Of a stretch of 64,000 bases of DNA, positions 7,608 to 62,423 are shown piece after piece. This DNA comes from Labia minor (Eukaryota > Arthropoda > Insecta > Dermaptera > Spongiphoridae), in assembly GCA_963082975.1 (NCBI GenBank), contig OY720346.1, forward strand, positions 50,068,296-50,132,295, in the 5' to 3' direction. Both the position numbers and the translations under genes were made by a program. Below the pieces are notes generated by a model. That model saw nothing but the letters and a program-made list of their open reading frames with translations, ran no database searches and was not told the DNA's origin. Every line of letters starts with the position of its first letter. The first letter of the stretch is position 1.

Positions 7608-8139
7608 TGTTCAGTCGTGAAGCCTGACGCCATCTATTGGTTCTTGCACGATTCACCGTTCCCCCTCTTGGCCTGAGTCCGGCCGACCGTCGCCACAGAG
7701 ACCACTTCTCTCCCACCTCGCTACGCACACATCGCCTCCTTGAATACCTTTTTTCAAAGAATCCCTCAACCGCCATCTTCGTTTATCCCTTTACTACAAT
7801 TATTCATCCCCCTTTTATCACTCACCACACCACACCACCCCCTCGTCTCTCAGCCAACCCTTGTTGCTGAGAACTCCACCGCTTCCAATTACGTTTTCCA
7901 AATCTCTCATTATCCACATCCACACAACCGCTATCTCTCTCTCTCTCTCTCTCTCGCCCTTATATACCACCCGATTCGCACCCTATCATCCTCCCCTTCG
8001 TGTCCTTTCTCTCGTAATTTGTACATAACTCAACTCGCTGTATATATAAAACCTGGATTGTTCAAATAAACAAGCCTCATCACAAATCGCCTTTTTATTT
8101 TAATTTTGTTTTTTTTCACCCGGCCTCCGGCCCTTTACA
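7608..8139 (+). repeat. Left LTR of BEL/Pao element
   Basis: 532 bp, TGTTCAG...TTTACA. G+C-richer than the surroundings, with a (CT)n tract near 7933-7955 and a 'tatatataaaa' TATA-like motif near 8041. No difference from the right LTR was found by eye, including an equal (CT)n length. Confidence 0.92.
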
Positions 8140-10460: not shown

Positions 10461-10992
10461 TGTTCAGTCGTGAAGCCTGACGCCATCTATTGGTTCTTGC
10501 ACGATTCACCGTTCCCCCTCTTGGCCTGAGTCCGGCCGACCGTCGCCACAGAGACCACTTCTCTCCCACCTCGCTACGCACACATCGCCTCCTTGAATAC
10601 CTTTTTTCAAAGAATCCCTCAACCGCCATCTTCGTTTATCCCTTTACTACAATTATTCATCCCCCTTTTATCACTCACCACACCACACCACCCCCTCGTC
10701 TCTCAGCCAACCCTTGTTGCTGAGAACTCCACCGCTTCCAATTACGTTTTCCAAATCTCTCATTATCCACATCCACACAACCGCTATCTCTCTCTCTCTC
10801 TCTCTCTCGCCCTTATATACCACCCGATTCGCACCCTATCATCCTCCCCTTCGTGTCCTTTCTCTCGTAATTTGTACATAACTCAACTCGCTGTATATAT
10901 AAAACCTGGATTGTTCAAATAAACAAGCCTCATCACAAATCGCCTTTTTATTTTAATTTTGTTTTTTTTCACCCGGCCTCCGGCCCTTTACA
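10461..10992 (+). repeat. Right LTR of BEL/Pao element
   Basis: 532 bp, same length and apparently same sequence as the left LTR. It would supply the polyadenylation region ('aataaacaagcctc' near 10918). Followed by GTATT (10993-10997). Confidence 0.92.
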
Positions 10993-11805: not shown

Positions 11806-12429
11806 ACCGACCGACGATAGTAAGGGAGGTATTGTTTTCACACCAAATTTCACATGTGGAGATTTTTACATATCTCCACGAATCATGCATTTTCTTAACA
11901 GAAAAAAGTATTTTTAGCATGATGTCTGTCCGTCCGTCCGTATAGATGTGTACAGCCTGAACGGCTCAACCGATTTTTATGAAATTTGGTATATTTACTT
12001 AATGCATCAGTGGGATGCATTGATCAACTTTTGGTGCAAATCCGGAAACCGGAAGTGGTAGTATTAGCGATCGACGATAGGAAGGGAAGGGTTATTTTCA
12101 CACCAAATTTCACATGAGGAGATTTTTTTATATATCACCACGAATCATACACTTTGTATTGGTTTTATCCTCGGGAAAATCATATTTATTAGTTTTTTCT
12201 TGATTTAAAGTTATATGACGTCATCCAGCCATTCATGACGTCACAGTCTGGTCTTGCATATATATTATAAATAAAATAAAATTAAAAATGTTTATATTTA
12301 TTATTTATGTATCCATATCTGTTTTTTATTACATTAATAGATATATTAAAATTATTTGAAATTGTTTCTGTAGCTGGAAATTAATTTACTTCAAACCGTC
12401 GGTCGGTTCGGACCTGGCCACAGGTCAAC
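11806..12429 (+). mobile_element. HINE-2 full copy (Helentron-like)
   Basis: The 5' end, ACCGACCGACGATAGTAAGG, recurs inverted near the 3' end as CGTCGGTCGGT (about 12398-12408). This is followed by the perfect hairpin GACCTG-GCCA-CAGGTC and an AAC end before a T-rich flank. The interior has a roughly 170-bp unit that starts at 'cgacgata' and is repeated once ('tttcacaccaaatttcacat' at about 11831 and 12098), a 'tccgtccgtccgt' tract, and TGACGTCA sites. No coding capacity. Same plan as HINE-1 but different termini. Confidence 0.85.
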
Positions 12430-12575
12430 TTATTTTTCTTCTTTCTAAAATTTAAATGAATTATATGCATTTTTGTAAATATGGTTTTCAATGGTAAATT
12501 ATTCTATTTCTTGAAATATATCGGGGAATCCACTTAAAAGAAATTTATAATGAAATATATATATATATATATACA
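12430..12575. other. A+T-rich spacer
   Basis: A+T-rich DNA ending in a (TA)n tract at about 12556-12573. Nothing else recognised. Confidence 0.5.
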
Positions 12576-34844: not shown

Positions 34845-35691
34845 GCGGGAGTGTCCTCCCCTAGACTTTCCCGCATATAAATATGTATAAAGAGTTGTGA
34901 ATGAATATTTAGAATGTAATAAAGTGCTACTTCCGGTTAACTGATATTTTAAATGTAAAAAAAACAGATATGGATATAATATAAATATTTTTAATTTTAT
35001 TTTATTTATAATATATAAGGGCTGGCTGTGACGTCATATAATTTTAAATTAAGAAAAAACTAATGAAGATGATTTTTCTCGAGGATAAAACCAATACAAA
35101 GTGCATAACACGTGGAGATATGCCTTCACGTGAAATTTGATATGAAAATAACCCTTCACTTCCTCTCTTCGATCGGCAATACTAGCACTTCCGGTTTCCG
35201 GATTTGCACCAAAAGTTGATCCATTCATCATACTGATGCATTAAGTAAATATACCAAATTTCATCAAAATCCGTTGAGCCGTTCAAGCTGTACACATCTC
35301 TACGGACACACAGCGGACGGACGGACAGACATCATGCTAAAAATACTTTTTTCTGTTAAGAAAATGCATGATTCGTGGAGATATGTACCTAAAAATATCC
35401 ACAGGTGAAATTTGGTGTGAAAACAATACCTCCCTTACTATCGTCGGTCGGTAAAAAGGAAACGCTACTTGTATAGGTAAAATGTCACTTCCGGTAGTCA
35501 GATCATGATGAAATTTGGTATCTGAATTTTTTTCATATTTTTAAATCTATATACAAAATATGAAGCAAATATCTCGAAGCAAACTGGTACTTTACTTGAA
35601 AGGTAAACGCAACCGGTGTAGGTAAAGTACCACTTCCGGTTAACCGATTTTGACGAAATTTTGTTTTGTTATACGAAGTATGCGGGAAAGT
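34845..35691 (-). mobile_element. HINE-3 (Helentron-like) with nested HINE-2
   Basis: Minus strand. The 5' terminus ACTTTCCCGCATA (complement at 35679-35691) recurs inverted at 34865-34877, followed by CTAG and a perfect hairpin, GGGAG-GACA-CTCCC (complement of 34847-34860). The interior has 'cacttccggtt' and 'ccgattttgacgaaatttt' blocks. A truncated HINE-2 copy occupies about 34957-35452. Confidence 0.75.
34957..35452 (-). mobile_element. HINE-2 copy, 3' truncated, nested in HINE-3
   Basis: The 5' end ACCGACCGACGATAGTAAGG is intact at 35433-35452 (complement). The copy ends at the 'atatccatatctgttttttt' block and lacks the terminal hairpin of the full copies. The 'ccgtccgtccgc' tract and the repeated unit are present. 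Confidence 0.8.
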
Positions 35692-36857: not shown

Positions 36858-37490
36858 ACGAGGTATGTTGAAAAGAAAATGTGAATTTTGAATTTTTGTC
36901 TTAAAAAAATGCTTATAAATGGTACAAGCGTTTTAAAAAAGCACGTTAAGTTCGATCAAATGTGCAAGTTTTGTTCAATGTTTTCATCGATTACAATGGC
37001 GTGGTGCATCATGAGTTCTTGCTAACAGGTCGTACTGTTAATAAGGAGTATTACAAGGAAGTTATGCAACGTTTGCGTGAAGCAATACGGCTTAAACGAT
37101 TGGAATTGAGGAAAAACAAATCATGGGTTCTGCATCACGATAATGCACCAGCTCATACATCATTGCTTTTTGGCCAAAAAAATACCGTAATCATGCCTCA
37201 ACCACCATTCACCAGACTTAGCTCCCTGCGACTTTTTCCTAGTCCTAAAAATGAAGACACCAATGAAAGCAAAGCGTTTTGCCACAATTGATAAGATAAA
37301 GTCAGAATCGAAGAACGACCTGATGGTCATACTGAAAAGCGTATTTCATAAGTGCTTGGACGATTGCAATAAGCGCTGGCATAAGTGCATTATAGCTGAG
37401 GGGAATTACTTTGAAGAGAACAAAATGGATATTGATCAATAAATAAATACTTTTAGAAATAATTCGAAATTCACCTTTTCGTTAGGGCTT
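36858..37490 (+). mobile_element. mariner element, C-terminal half only
   Basis: Related ends 'gtgaattttgaattttt' (about 36880) and the complement of 'aattcgaaattcacctttt' (about 37462-37480) enclose the second half of a mariner transposase. Same subfamily as 3661-4085. Confidence 0.7.
36962..37442 (+). pseudogene. mariner transposase, catalytic C-terminal half
   Basis: Reads VLFNVFIDYNGVVHHEFLLT, VNKEYYKEVMQRLREAIRLK, then KSWVLHHDNAPAHTSLLF, the second Asp block of DD34D transposases. One frame shift follows at about 37195, and the other frame gives HHSPDLAPCDFFL (third Asp block), KTPMKAKRFATIDKIKSES and RWHKCIIAEGNYFEENKMDI ending at a stop near 37441. The N-terminal HTH region and first Asp block are absent. 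The enzyme would cut and paste at TA sites in the nucleus; this copy cannot. Confidence 0.85.
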
Positions 37491-38121
37491 GGTTCTGAAA
37501 TAATATGTTTATTGACATAAAATTAAAATTAAATATCAATAATAATAATAAAAACAACATTTCTGCTATACATACACCCACACACACTTATACGTCAACG
37601 GAAAACCAATACTTTGGAATCAGGATGACTTGAAACGTTGAGATTTGTGAAAAAACGCATATCAGTCACTCTCATCAGGATCACAATACCTTTACTCTCA
37701 AAATATTTTGAATTTGTTTCAATTGTAAAGTAAAAAAAATTGTATAAATTGTAAATAATATATGTATATTTTGTGTAGACAAAAAAGTTAATAAATAAAT
37801 AAATAAATAAACGTCTATATATATATATATATATATATAATCAAAAACCAATGACATTTTTTTTATATAATTTATCATTCTATTCAACGAGTAATATAAA
37901 AATATTTTTTGACAGATTATACCTTTATTATTATAATATTTCATTCCGAGATATATCATTTTCATCTCTATAATATTTAATTGGTAATTTGATCTACCAA
38001 TTCTTCTAGATTTATGATTAGTTTTATTTAAATTTCGGATGATATCTACGATAATGATTTTATTAAAATTCATTAAAATGAAATAAAAAAATATTCTCTA
38101 AAAATTTTCTCATTAATTTTT
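37491..38121. other. A+T-rich spacer
   Basis: (TA)n at about 37818-37840 and a short CA-rich patch near 37571-37590. No gene recognised. Confidence 0.55.
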
Positions 38122-38265
38122 GAAGTGAAACTTCTTTAGCGGCGTCCTGACATTTGGTTGAGAATGGAGAGTGAATTGAAAAATTGAAATTTCGTAACGC
38201 AAGAGAGAAAAAAATTGAAATTTCGTAACGCAAGAGAGAAAAAAGATATAGATATAACGAGTGGG

Positions 38266-38412
38266 AATGAGATAGCCTCTATCTGCGTCTCCCTTTTGTG
38301 CGGTCTTTCGTTCTTGAGAAAGAGGCTATCTGCGTCTCCCTTTTGTGCGGTCTTTCGTTCTTGAGAAAGAGGCTGTCTGCGTCTCCCTTTTGTGCGATCT
38401 TTCGTTCTAATA
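38266..38412. repeat. 47-bp minisatellite, about three units
   Basis: The unit contains 'ctgcgtctcccttttgtgcg' and 'gtctttcgttcttgagaaag'. Three units here, one in copy 2 (about 61965-62015). A 32-bp tandem duplication ('gaaatttcgtaacgcaagag') lies just upstream at about 38183-38245 and is also single in copy 2. Confidence 0.85.
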
Positions 38413-38527
38413 CCCACTCGCTAGGTCCAAAGTCCATGGCGCGCATGCGCGCGAGTACGTTGACGCGGAATAATATTTCTCAGCCTCTACTGGGTCAAAG
38501 AATTAAAAATTAGTATGACTTATGATC

Positions 38528-39113
38528 AAAAGAGGGCGAGATCTCCACCTTGTCCAGTAGATATCGCAATTAAATACAATTTGAATTTAAATATATATTA
38601 ATTTCAAAATTTGCCTAAACATTTATAAAAATAAATATACATATGAAATTTGTTATTTTTTTTTAATATTAAAAAATATTTAATTTGAGATTAATTATAT
38701 GTAAAAAGATCAACTATCAAATAGATTCAAACTTTTATTTTCTTTGATTAGATTATAATTAAATATTATTTATATTATTTAAAAATTATTATTTTTCTAT
38801 TTATTAAGGATGTCTATTAAAAAATTGTAATTAACCTTATCATATGTCATATATTATAGCTAAGTTTTTTTGAATTTTTTAAAATTTTTTATATAATTAA
38901 TCTCAAATTAAATATTTTTTAATATTAAAAAATAACAAATTTCATATGTATATTTATTTATTTTTAATATTAAACGTATTTCATATGTATATTTATTTTT
39001 ATAAATGTTTAGGCAAATTTTGAAATTAATATATATTTAAATTCAAATTGTATTTAATTGCGATATCTACTTGAGCAAAGCAAACACAATGGTGAAGGCC
39101 CCGCCATCTCTTG
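38528..39113. mobile_element. Palindromic MITE inside the Helentron-like element
   Basis: Arms of about 155 bp: AGTAGATATCGCAATTAAAT from 38556 pairs with ATTTAATTGCGATATCTACT ending 39071. Outside these, 'caaaagagggcg' and 'cgccatctcttgag' look like diverged outer arms. The right arm carries a small internal duplication. No coding capacity. Absent from copy 2, where a larger block (about 38456-39278) is missing. Confidence 0.6.
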
Positions 39114-39560
39114 AGTTGTCTTGACCTAAAGCCAAGCGTGGTCGTTGGTTACGCCCTCTTAGGGACAATCATTTCTATCTCGGAGCCACGGATGTAAACC
39201 TTTACCTACGCATCAGTACGTGAGAGAGGCATATTACTTTTGAGCTATCGATAAATATTTCTACCTATCGCTGCTATACATGTAAGTCATATATAAAAAT
39301 TGATATTTATATATATATATATATATATATCGTGAAATAATTAAAATTCTCAAGTCAAATATACAGCGTGCACGCATACCGACGCATGTAATTGTGTGTG
39401 TGAACATGGTCGGCGATTCACACGCCAACACATACAGTTATGTGCGTCGATGACCATTCACGTTATTTATCCGAATCTCAACATTACTTTAACACTACTA
39501 AATCAATTTAAAATTATTATTGCATTTAAAACTGCTTTTCTCTACTCCACAGATTTCACT

Positions 39561-39965
39561 ATGCCGAAAAAAAATAACGACCAAAATTTAGACGATATTA
39601 TTTATTTCATACACCGTTCACTACTGGTTTATAGCCACACAGGTGCTAATGCACTTGAACGAGGCGAAGATAAAATCCCTCTAATTCTCGGGGGAGATTT
39701 TAATGTAAATTTTGGATCTGATGATTCGTTGCCGTTGATCAACTTTCTTCGAGAAACATTTGGTCTGCTTATAAATAACGATCCCAAGGAATCAACAACA
39801 AAATCTGGAACTACAATAGATGCTGTTTTTACACGTTATATAGAAAATATCGAATCACGAACATATATATCTTATTTTAGTTATCACAAGCCATTAATAT
39901 CAGTATTACCAATTGAAGCACCAACCGACAATAGTACAGGCAATGTAGATATGATGATAGAGTAG
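39561..39965 (+). CDS. Helentron-type endonuclease C-terminal fragment
   Basis: An open frame extends from 39396, but similarity-like sequence starts near the ATG at 39561. It reads MPKKNNDQNLDDIIYFIHRS, then KIPLILGGDFNVNFGS, LPLINFLRETFGLLINNDPK, TTKSGTTIDAVFTRYIENIE, SRTYISYFSYHKPLISVLPI. GGDFN is the Asp/Asn motif of the exonuclease-endonuclease-phosphatase fold, and TIDAVF and SYFSYHKP are its C-terminal motifs as found at the end of Helentron Rep-helicase-endonuclease proteins. Only the last third is present, so nuclease activity is doubtful. 'ctctactccacag' just before 39553 could be a splice acceptor. The frame ends at TAG 39963-39965, and HINE-2 inserted 13 bp later. Confidence 0.65.
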   Translation: MPKKNNDQNLDDIIYFIHRSLLVYSHTGANALERGEDKIPLILGGDFNVNFGSDDSLPLINFLRETFGLLINNDPKESTTKSGTTIDAVFTRYIENIESRTYISYFSYHKPLISVLPIEAPTDNSTGNVDMMIE

Positions 39966-39978
39966 ATAATAATAATAA

Positions 39979-40605
39979 GTTGACCTGTGGCCAGGTCCGA
40001 ACCGACCGACGGTTTGAAATAAATTAATTTCCAGCTACAGAAACAATTTCAAATAATTTTCATATATCTATTAATGCAATAAAAAACAGATATGGATACA
40101 TAAATAATAAATATAAACATTTTTAATTTTATTTTATTTATAATATATATGCAAGACCAGGCTGTGACGTCATGAATGGCTGGATGACGTCATATAATTT
40201 TAAATCAAGAAAAAACTAATAAATATGATTTTTCTCGAGGATAAAACCAATACAAAGTGCATGATTCGTGGTGATATATAAAAAAATCTCCTTTGGTGTG
40301 AAAATAACCCTTTCTTTCCTATCGTCGGTCGCTAATACTACCACTTCCGGTTTCCGGATTTGCACCAAAAGTTGATCAATTCATCCCACTGATGCATTAA
40401 GTAAATATAGCAAATTTCATCAAAATCGGTTGAGCCGTTCAGGCTGTACACATCTATACGGACGGACCGACAGACGGACGGACAGACATCATGCTAAAAA
40501 TACTTTTTTCTGTTTAGAAAATGCATGATTCGTGGAGATATGTAAAAATCTCCACATGTGAAATTTGGTGTGAAAACAATACCTCCCTTACTATCGTCGG
40601 TCGGT
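39979..40605 (-). mobile_element. HINE-2 full copy inserted in the Helentron-like element
   Basis: The minus-strand 3' end (complement of GTTGACCTGTGGCCAGGTC) is at 39979 and the 5' end ACCGACCGACG at 40595-40605. It lies inside an (ATA)n tract that is uninterrupted in copy 2 (about 60577-60594), which fixes the element limits to within a few bases. Confidence 0.88.
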
Positions 40606-40803
40606 AATAATAAAGCGAATATTTGTTACGAAAATTTTATACTGTTATATGTCTTTCGAAATGATCCCTTTATTTTTCTCTATTTCTCTCTCACTCACAC
40701 TCTCAACTAAAATTTCTCTTATTCTCTAGATTCTAAGAAGTTTCACTTCCGCCACGTGTACGATGCTGCACATTTTGCTTTTTTTTTAAGTATATCTTTA
40801 GAG

Positions 40804-49068: not shown

Positions 49069-50928
49069 TTAATGAGATGTATGCAGTTGTTTTCTTGAAA
49101 CAAGAATCTCAATATCTGGCTTAATATTGGAAACTTTTAATCTAAGATCCGGCTCTACATTTAATTTGTTTCTATATTTAGACTTAATATAAAATAGTAC
49201 CGAAAAAGCTTGTTCGCATAAATATGTTGTGCAGAATGGAATCAAGTGTTGAAGTGCTTTATTTGCAAGCGCAGGATAATCTGACCTGAGAAGTAACCAA
49301 AAGTTGCTCAATTCAGTTTTGTTAAATTTTAGTTTATAAGTTGTATCACATGATAATTCCACGAGAATATCTTGTTCAGGTGCAGATAAATGTTTAGCAT
49401 TTGTAATTTCCATATTAAATGGATCTCTGATCCAGTTATTGCAAGGATCAGGAGTAGAAAAATACTTCCTGAAGTTGCTTTTCAAAGTAATTAAATGTTC
49501 AACAAATAATTGACGCGTTTGATTAAGCAATTTTTCACTGGAGCTTTCTATGAAATCATTGAGAGTTGGAAAAGACTCATATACACCGTTCTGGATGCGT
49601 TTCGACCACAAGTCGATTTTTTTAATCATTGCTTCTATTTTATCTTCAACTTTAAATATATTTACAACAGTACCTTGCAGGCTCAAATTAAGTTCGTTCA
49701 ATTTTGTAAAAATATCAGTCAAGTAAGCCACCTTAGCTAACCAGATAAAATCATTGAAACATTCGGTCAGTTCAAAATGCGCATCTATTAAAAACAATCG
49801 TATTTCATCTCGAAGCTCAAAAAGGCGAATGAGTACTTTCCCGCGGGACAACCAACGTACATCTGTATGTAATAATAAATGTGTATGTTGACTACCCATT
49901 TCCTCACACAAAATTTTAAAAACTCTGGAATTAAGTGGACGAGCCTTAATGAAATTGACAATTTTAACTACTTCGTCTAATGTTCTTTTCAAATCTGGTG
50001 ACATATTTTTGGCTGCTAATGATTCTCTGTGAATGCAGCAATGATTCCAAACAACCTGAGGCGCAACATTTTTAATAAGAGCAATCAATCCAGTTCTTGT
50101 ACCTGACATTGCACGAGCACCATCAGTGCAAATTCCAACACATTTTGGCCACTCTATTTCATTTTCGGTTATAAAATTATTCAAACTGTTAAATATGTCA
50201 TTAGCTGTCGTTCGTGAAGGTAGTGAATCACAAAACAATACATCTTCTTGTATTTGATTTTCAAACTCATATCTAATGAAAGCTAACAAATTGGCATTAT
50301 TAGTGACATCAGTACTTTCATCCAATTGTAATGAGTAATAGTGACTTTTGCGCACTCTCGATATTAATTCTTCTTTTATATTACATGACATGTCTTCAAT
50401 CCTATTCTTAACCGTATCATTTGATAATGAAATCAAATTTATATCGTTTGCTGCTTTAGTTCCTAACATTATATTTGTAATTACTTTTGTAGCAGGAAGA
50501 ATTAATTGCTCTGCTATATTATGCGGCTTTCCTGCTTTAGCAATAAGTAGAGCTACTTCATATGATGCCATTACTGCTTTCTTACTCATACCACCAGATC
50601 CCGTCTTTACCATCAATTTCTGACTTGAATTAAGTTCTTCTTTTTTCATTTTAAAAAATTCGATAGACTTACTAACATGCTCGCTGTGCTTTGTTTGTAA
50701 ATGACGTCTGAGATTAGCAGGTTTCATACTTTCATTGGATAAACTTTCCTGACATAGAACGCAGACTGGTCTTTCCACATCATTGTTGCAAATATAAGTA
50801 AATCCAAATGATAAATAATCATCCGAATATTTTCTAGTTTTGCGTTTCTTGGTAGAGTTTGCTGTTGATGCCTCATCATCTGATTCTTTCCGTTTCTGTG
50901 TTGAACCAGTTTGTAGCCAACGATCCAT
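49069..50928 (-). CDS. hAT transposase, ZBED5/SCAND3-like
   Basis: Single-exon 619-residue protein that would bind the element ends and catalyse cut-and-paste transposition in the nucleus. A Lys/Arg-rich N-terminus (residues 22-33) may be a nuclear signal. A BED-type zinc finger follows (C56, C59, H76, H81). The hAT catalytic residues are visible: D203 in QLDESTDV, D269 in GICTDGARAMSG and E572 in TTYLCEQAFSVL. The hAT CxxH-type motif is at 297-300 (CCIH) and VRWLSRG at 357-363. Residues 535-590 form the C-terminal dimerisation region. All key parts are present, and length fits the ZBED5/SCAND3-like branch. The ATG at 50928 is the first in frame and precedes the MDRWL start common in this branch. 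It lies within TIRs with a target duplication, so it is a transposon gene, not a domesticated one. Confidence 0.93.
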   Translation of the reverse strand: MDRWLQTGSTQKRKESDDEASTANSTKKRKTRKYSDDYLSFGFTYICNNDVERPVCVLCQESLSNESMKPANLRRHLQTKHSEHVSKSIEFFKMKKEELNSSQKLMVKTGSGGMSKKAVMASYEVALLIAKAGKPHNIAEQLILPATKVITNIMLGTKAANDINLISLSNDTVKNRIEDMSCNIKEELISRVRKSHYYSLQLDESTDVTNNANLLAFIRYEFENQIQEDVLFCDSLPSRTTANDIFNSLNNFITENEIEWPKCVGICTDGARAMSGTRTGLIALIKNVAPQVVWNHCCIHRESLAAKNMSPDLKRTLDEVVKIVNFIKARPLNSRVFKILCEEMGSQHTHLLLHTDVRWLSRGKVLIRLFELRDEIRLFLIDAHFELTECFNDFIWLAKVAYLTDIFTKLNELNLSLQGTVVNIFKVEDKIEAMIKKIDLWSKRIQNGVYESFPTLNDFIESSSEKLLNQTRQLFVEHLITLKSNFRKYFSTPDPCNNWIRDPFNMEITNAKHLSAPEQDILVELSCDTTYKLKFNKTELSNFWLLLRSDYPALANKALQHLIPFCTTYLCEQAFSVLFYIKSKYRNKLNVEPDLRLKVSNIKPDIEILVSRKQLHTSH

Positions 50929-60415: not shown

Positions 60416-60592
60416 AATGTGCAGCATCGTACACGTGGCGGAAGTGAAACTTCTTACAATCTAGAGAATAAGATAAATTTTAGTTGAGAGTGTGAGTGAG
60501 AGAGAAATAGAGAAAAATAAAGGGATCATTTCGAAAGACATATAACAGTATAAAATTTTCGTAACAAATATTCGCTTTATTATTATTATTAT

Positions 60593-61010
60593 CTACTCTA
60601 TCATCATATCTACATTGCCTGTACTATTGTCGGTTGGTGCTTCAATTGGTAATACTGATATTAATGGCTTGTGATAACTAAAATAAGATATATATGTTCG
60701 TGATTCGATATTTTCTATATAACGTGTAAAAACAGCATCTATTGTAGTTCCAGATTTTGTTGTTGATTCCTTGGGATCGTTATTTAGAAGCAGACCAAAT
60801 GTTTCTCGAAGAAAGTTGATCAACGGCAACGAATCATCTCAGATCCAAAATTTACATTAAAATCTCCCCCGAGAATTAGAGGGATTTTATCTTCGCCTCG
60901 TTCAAGTGCATTAGCACCTGTGTGGCTATAAACCAGTAGTGAACGGTGTATGAAATAAATAATATCGTCTAAATTTTGGTCGTTATTTTTTTTCGGCATA
61001 GTGAAATCTG
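60593..61010 (-). pseudogene. Helentron-type endonuclease fragment, frameshifted
   Basis: Same sequence as the fragment at 39561-39965: IPLILGGDFNVNFGS, then LPLINFLRETFGLLLNNDPK and SYFSYHKPLISVLPI. A 2-bp difference after 'ttggatctga' shifts the frame just after the GGDFN motif. Otherwise only scattered substitutions are visible. Confidence 0.75.
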
Positions 61011-61227
61011 TGGAGTAGAGAAAAGCAGTTTTAAATGCAATAATAATTTTAAATTGATTTAGTAGTGTTAAAGTAATGTTGAGATTCGGATAAATAACGT
61101 GAATGGTCATCGACGCACATAACTGTATGTGTTGGCGTGTGAATCGCCGACCATGTTCACACACACAATTACATGCGTCGGTATGCGTGCACGCTGTATA
61201 TTTGACTTGAGAATTTTAATTATTTCA

Positions 61228-61262
<35 letters not shown>

Positions 61263-61271
61263 TCAATTTTT

Positions 61272-61386
61272 ACTATCTCGCCAGAGATAGTATTGCGATC
61301 ACGAAAATTTTCGATGTTGAGATTTTGATGTTTTTATACGTTTTGAAGGTTCCTGAATCATTTTCACTAAGGTTGAGAAAAATGTC

Positions 61387-61423
<37 letters not shown>

Positions 61424-61899
61424 TAGTGTGTGTGTATGTAGGCAAGATTACGCAAAAACGGTTTGAGCTAGAATGATGAAATTTGGTACATGGACATTAT
61501 TCAAAATTCATAGTTTTCTATCAACTTTTGAGAAATGTAGGTCAACCGGAAGAGGGTCATTACCTACAACGTTTTGATTTTTTTTCCTCTAAAGTGACCG
61601 TAAAAATAAAGATATATGTTTGATAATTTTTCACATGATTAATAATTGTATAAAACTGCTATATATAGAATTTCAGCTTGATTGATTCGCTAAAATTACC
61701 AGAATTAATTTTTTAACACTGCAAATCTCACGCGCCAACACGTAACGTGGTGCCATCAACAAAAAGCCAAACATGCGCTGGTTTAATATTTATTATTTAT
61801 TATTTATAATTTATAATTAATTAAATTTAATTTAAATATAACATATTATGTTATTTAATCCAATTCAAATTGCGAGATAGTCGAGTGGAGACACTCCAG
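61272..61899 (+). mobile_element. HINE-1 copy I, nested in copy 2
   Basis: Full length, with the same terminal palindrome and hairpin as copy B and a long (GT)n tract. The uninterrupted site is present in copy 1 at about 39290-39300 ('gtcatatataaaaattgata'), so the insertion limits are known to within a few bases. Confidence 0.88.
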
Positions 61900-62125
61900 C
61901 TAATTATATATGACTTAACTAGCGCGCATGCGCGTCATGGACTTTGGACCTAGAGTGGGGATTAGAACGAAAGACAGCACAAAAGGGAGACGCAGATAGA
62001 AGCTATCTCATTCTCACTCGTTATACCTATATCTTCTTTCTCTCTTGCGTTACGAAATTTCAATTTTTCAATTCACTCTCCATTCTCAACCAAATGTCAG
62101 GACGCCGCTAAAGAAGTTTCACTTC

Positions 62126-62423
62126 AAAAATACTGATTTTTTCAAGAATATATTATATTTATATTGTATTAAAAAATAAGACTATTTATATACTTAAAGA
62201 GACAAACAAGAGAGATAGATTATTTATTTATAATTCAAAAGAGTAATTTAAAACCCTATTAGAAGAAAATAATACACACATTTAAATTATTTAATATTAC
62301 CATATTACTTAATAAATTATTCTAAAATATAATATTTTATTTATGAAGATAATCATTAAAGTAAAGCATAAAGTATTAAAATTTTATCTATGTAAACATT
62401 ATTTTATTATAATAAATAAATAA

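Follow-up and report, generated by a model that had tools for sequence, protein, structure and literature searches.

The closest described systems to the locus analysed here are the Helentrons and HINE-Mo-1 to 7 of Thomas, Vadnagara and Pritham (2014; PMC4067079), the DINE-1 elements of Drosophila (PMC2374699) and Cg_HINE of Crassostrea gigas (PMC7492417), each cited here from the available part of its text. HINEs and Helentrons are described as having subterminal inverted repeats (subTIRs) near the 5' end, a 3' palindrome and a T-rich target, and the HINE target site is left unmodified, as demonstrated by paralogous empty sites; the two inserts reported below are alike in these respects (PMC4067079). 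Autonomous Helentrons additionally carry an endonuclease domain that belongs to the same Pfam model, PF14529, to which a sub-cut-off fragment was matched in this study (PMC4067079). For DINE-1, a conserved core of about 90 bp has been reported (PMC2374699).

In the 64-kb window, which is the whole stretch of DNA that was analysed, two non-autonomous rolling-circle elements of the HINE kind (HINE-1 and HINE-2) appear to have hit two copies of a larger Helentron-like element that retains part of an endonuclease-like gene, a reading to which a probability of roughly 0.85 is assigned. The observations that carry it are the same host ends in both copies, precise insert ends, targets that are T-rich on the sense strand, and joined flanks that equal the empty site without a duplication; the enzyme, the intermediate and the autonomous partner are drawn from the literature.

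The plus strand of copy 1 was aligned globally with the reverse complement of copy 2. Copy 1 of the host, a non-autonomous element, spans 38118-40776 (plus strand) and holds HINE-2 and an 826-bp block, and copy 2 spans 60416-62129 (minus strand) with HINE-1 inside. Homology of the two extends from TTTTTGAAGTG to CACATTTT and the sequence differs beyond, the exact ends being uncertain within T runs; the host borders are T-rich. Without the HINEs, the host measures about 2.0 kb in copy 1 and 1.1 kb in copy 2. The shared ends, dissimilar flanks and near-identical gap-free stretches confirmed that these are real copies of one host element, as a first-pass annotation of this DNA had proposed. The 15-bp subterminal inverted pair claimed in that annotation was also recovered, with the 5' subTIR of copy 1 at 38122-38136 (plus strand; 62111-62125 in copy 2) and the 3' subTIR at 40735-40749 (plus strand; 60441-60455 in copy 2), approximately 24 nt from the 3' end; shuffling the end zones 2000 times never produced a match of 15 bp. 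The 3' hairpin claimed for the host found no support, which counts against the preferred reading: for the tail past the 3' subTIR, a folding energy of -0.6 kcal/mol was obtained, and 187/200 shuffles do as well. Only the subTIRs fold, and weakly so (10/200 and 5/200 shuffles fold as well).

The endonuclease-like fragment corresponds to an open frame of 133 codons from ATG (39564-39965, plus strand) resembling the second half of Exo_endo_phos_2. The fragment said to be shared is indeed found in both host copies, but its match to PF14529 (profile positions 26-115 of 117) scores 17.9 bits, under the cut-off of 27.4, and the copy 2 version carries a 2-bp frameshift. No relatives were found in the PDB by sequence, which counts against the preferred reading, and the structure model was unusable (mean pLDDT 37.5). 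In the contig collections that were searched, which are viral and prokaryotic so that few matches are to be expected, one stretch of the viral contigs and 39 stretches of the genome contigs matched the fragment pattern with none confirmed, and the host 5' end pattern had no match among the viral contigs. Among frames of at least 90 aa, no Rep/helicase frame was seen in the host copies, the sole other frame being one of 93 aa in the tandem units, read from the minus strand. This absence is expected for a deletion derivative, and the host is probably such a derivative of an autonomous element. Because Rep and helicase domains were not found in it, the host is only called Helentron-like and is not assigned as a member.

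The insertion of HINE-2 into copy 1 (39975-40606, minus strand, 632 bp) is matched in copy 2 by an empty site of five ATA units (60578-60592, minus strand), as seen in the junction alignment. In copy 1, the (ATA)n tract breaks off at AGTTGACC and is resumed after CGGTCGGTA. The shared prefix of 26 bases and suffix of 21 add up to 6 more than the 41-base empty site, resulting in seven possible end placements; the placement given here lies between two As, which are two Ts on the HINE-2 sense strand. When 60 bases from each side were joined, they equalled copy 2 over 120/120 bases with no mismatch and no gap, and the flanks are homologous at both sides of the site. Both the uninterrupted (ATA)n tract reported for copy 2 and the coincidence of the gap with the HINE-2 ends were therefore borne out. 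Taken by itself, this site could conceal a duplication of as many as 6 bp, but no repeat of that kind accompanies the HINE-2 copy near 11806-12432, whose terminal bases are identical. HINE-2 inserted here without altering its target.

The insertion of HINE-1 into copy 2 (61271-61904, plus strand, 634 bp) is given at a placement between two Ts, one of four that are possible. Copy 2 reads TAAGTCATATATA, then HINE-1, then AAAATTGATA, and the same two sequences are joined in copy 1 at 39283-39305 (plus strand; junction alignment), where gtcatatataaaaattgata (39286-39305) is uninterrupted. With a prefix of 14 and a suffix of 18 bases against 29, the gap again coincides with the ends of the insert. 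On the left flank, only 13-14 bp are shared before the 826-bp gap. The joined flanks align over 73/120 bases, free of mismatches but with 6 gap bases within a TA repeat, because the 826-bp block of copy 1 ends 13 bp from the junction; they fall short of the published empty-site criterion as given in the available part of PMC4067079. The copy 2 junction query also returned five weaker AT-repeat matches (76-87%). The site was accepted because the right flank is strong and the 13-mer beside the junction is found nowhere else in the window; it stands as a one-sided control. Of the reciprocal empty sites put forward in the first-pass annotation, presence and absence are thus real in both directions, including the intact copy 1 sequence opposite HINE-1, but the HINE-1 control covers one side only. 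With nine other joined-flank queries (five HINE-1, two HINE-2 and both host copies), no empty site in the window was convincing: few matches crossed the junction, and these covered 60-67 bases or fewer with 73-78% identity.

The two inserts had been regarded as unclassified families; their insertion sites are given by the host pair, but as judged from sequence features, both follow the published HINE/DINE-1 plan of 10-11 bp subTIRs, a 3' palindrome, a microsatellite and a T-rich target with no duplication needed. On its sense strand, HINE-1 starts with TACTATCTCGCCAGAGATAGT (the subTIR and a complementary repeat) and finishes with GCGAGATAGT-CGAGTGGAGACACTCCAGCTAAT, and HINE-2 starts with TACCGACCGACG and finishes with CGTCGGTCGGT-TCGGACCTGGCCACAGGTCAACTTAT. 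A hairpin follows the 3' subTIR in both inserts, at -3.6 kcal/mol in HINE-1 (2/200 shuffles as good) and -5.8 kcal/mol in HINE-2 (0/200), and the 5' palindrome of HINE-1 folds at -6.5 kcal/mol (0/200). HINE-1 has a TG run at 125, and HINE-2 has GTCY runs at 119-146 nt from its 5' end on the sense strand. HINE-2 also contains, near 276, a diverged internal repeat of its 5' end (40251-40340 vs 40515-40612). No open reading frame of at least 90 aa, the cut-off used, lies inside either insert; Rfam and tRNA searches gave no matches, and the exact HINE-1 end patterns had none in the viral and genome contig collections.

A profile search of the 64-kb window, to which all copy counts are limited, found seven near-full HINE-1 copies and three HINE-2 copies, plus fragments. 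Identity to the HINE-1 of copy 2 is 76-97% among the six other near-full copies, and the two other HINE-2 copies are 94% and 84% identical to the one in copy 1. The HINE-1 5' end, TTAC(T/A)ATCTC, is present in 7/7 near-full copies, and its 3' end is recognisable with a T-rich border in 6/7, the seventh having none at the expected place; the HINE-2 5' end is common to 3/3 copies and the 3' end to 2/3. A perfect subTIR match of 10 bp was found for HINE-1 in copy 2 (reached by 10/2000 shuffles) and in copies b and c, and one of 11 bp in both HINE-2 copies that keep their own 3' end (4/2000; 0/2000 for each of those two copies with slightly different end zones). Folding of the 3' end in HINE-1 copies c and d was equalled by 2/200 and 1/200 shuffles. 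Counting against the reading, perfect subTIR matches reach no more than 5, 7 and 8 bp in HINE-1 copies d, e and f, which have diverged further, and copies e and f have weak 3' hairpins (23/200 and 30/200 shuffles as good). The T-rich borders are weak evidence because 14.9% of dinucleotides are TT and 14.6% are AA, and some of the possible HINE end placements are not between two Ts. Each HINE profile weakly matches two copies of the other family (E 2e-4 to 8e-4), a hint that the two may be distantly related, though direct comparison of HINE-1 with HINE-2 gave short matches only.

Under the preferred reading, an autonomous Helentron elsewhere in the genome would supply the Rep/helicase/endonuclease, which would nick the 5' end of a HINE; one strand would then be displaced as far as the 3' palindrome, with the subTIRs and this palindrome serving as start and stop signals, and the rolling-circle product would integrate at a T-rich site. 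The 64-kb window showed no autonomous partner, which counts against this reading. Each HINE lies inside a host copy and must have inserted later than that copy, and the proposal that the host element came first follows from this nesting. The nesting dates each HINE against its own host copy only; it does not order HINE-1 relative to HINE-2, nor either of them relative to the 826-bp difference.

The alternative that survives best, with about an even chance of being correct, is that copies 1 and 2 are hybrid or partly converted, the 3' half having been shared by gene conversion or module exchange, in which case they would not be simple sisters and identity would not date the insertions. In gap-free stretches picked by hand, with the tandem units and the TA repeat excluded, mismatches between the copies number 0/61 bases at the 5' end, 9/149 in the middle of the 5' module, 1/636 in the 3' half and 2/161 at the 3' end. 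The divergence is therefore uneven, at 9/149 in the 5' middle vs 3/858 elsewhere (Fisher p = 4e-6), suggesting from the alignment that recombination, gene conversion or module exchange may have taken place and making it unsafe to date the insertions by identity. An alternative count of the host 5' part gave 12 mismatches, about four of which were judged to lie beyond the end of homology. The diverged middle of the 5' module corresponds to 38210-38457 in copy 1 vs 62068-61917 in copy 2. The 826-bp block and the tandem units (of 31 bp and 47 bp in copy 1) set the copies apart beside this same module and also favour this alternative, but only two copies enter the comparison, the stretches were hand-chosen, and more rapid evolution of a module rich in repeats could contribute to the contrast. 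The idea of simple sister copies is nonetheless doubted, given the mismatch counts. This alternative is compatible with the preferred reading of HINE insertions into a Helentron-like host, and it leaves the HINE-2 junctions untouched.

A bolder extension, that the ends of such rolling-circle elements are exchangeable modules, is considered doubtful; it draws on a hybrid HINE-2 copy and on host copies that are alike in their ends and 3' half with a diverged 5' module. The hybrid (34845-35452, minus strand) combines the HINE-2 5' end with a HINE-1-like terminus in place of its own 3' end. No subTIR is common to the two termini, which match in inverted orientation over 5 bp at most (reached by 1742/2000 shuffles). 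If such hybrids move, transposition would not depend on matching subTIRs, and the 5' end would be a signal independent of the 3' end; the hybrid is a single copy, from which mobility is not demonstrable.

The 826-bp block, like the differing tandem units, was absent from the account in the first-pass annotation. In the global alignment, the block is present in copy 1 only (38457-39282, plus strand) and includes a self-inverted fold-back of approximately 520 bp (38553-39074) with arms about 70% identical; outside the fold-back, its G+C content is 40-44% and those parts match nothing else in the window. The block was considered as a further HINE in copy 1 and rejected, the longest inverted matches of its end zones being two of 9 bp. 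That copy 2 lost the block through a deletion linked to the insertion of HINE-1, as opposed to an independent loss, is quite unlikely: in favour of it, only 13 bp separate the break from the HINE-1 3' end, but these 13 bp are intact, no other HINE copy in the window is open to the same test, and the block may equally be an insertion in copy 1.

The weakest alternative, in which both inserts would be MITEs that move by cut-and-paste, bear subterminal inverted repeats and produced a short AT-rich target-site duplication at each insertion, is very improbable: the junctions alone permit a duplication of up to 3 bp (HINE-1) or 6 bp (HINE-2), and DINE-1 was formerly taken for a MITE with a TT duplication according to the available part of PMC2374699, but in other copies the terminal bases are constant while the flanks differ and show no such repeat, and the ends lack symmetry, a hairpin being present in HINE-2 past its 3' subTIR only.

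Several other features lie in the window. A 619 aa open frame at 49069-50928 (minus strand) resembles a BED-finger hAT-type transposase, with Pfam matches under the cut-off, and a mariner-type transposase fragment is found at 36962-37291 (plus strand; Transposase_1, E=6.5e-9). An identical 109-aa frame occurs twice, at 7740-8069 and 10593-10922 (plus strand), 2853 bases apart and flanking three longer frames; the two might be placed like the LTRs of a retroelement.

Compared with the described systems, as far as the available parts of those papers go, HINE-1 shares with DINE-1 of Drosophila the inverted repeat beside the 5' subTIR, and HINE-2 shares the GTCY microsatellite; a stem-loop a few bases past the 3' subTIR and a preference for TT are likewise alike (PMC2374699). 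The subTIRs here are 10-11 bp, whereas those of DINE-1 are 13-bp (PMC2374699) and those of mite HINEs are 12-15 (PMC4067079). The host 3' subTIR lies approximately 24 nt from the end vs 38-60 in PMC4067079, and unlike in that study, the empty sites are provided by two Helentron-like copies in one window. Cg_HINE is alike in its 11-12 bp subTIRs, the complementary repeat beside the 5' one, the 3' palindrome, the microsatellites and the T-rich empty sites without duplication, and differs from the HINEs here in its central satellite-like arrays (PMC7492417). The host pair yields precise ends for two HINE families, which is useful for repeat annotation of this genome, and with more copies, the hybrid HINE and the uneven host divergence could be used to test the independence of the 5' and 3' ends. 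Overall, the findings repeat the published picture of mite, Drosophila, Culex and oyster HINEs.
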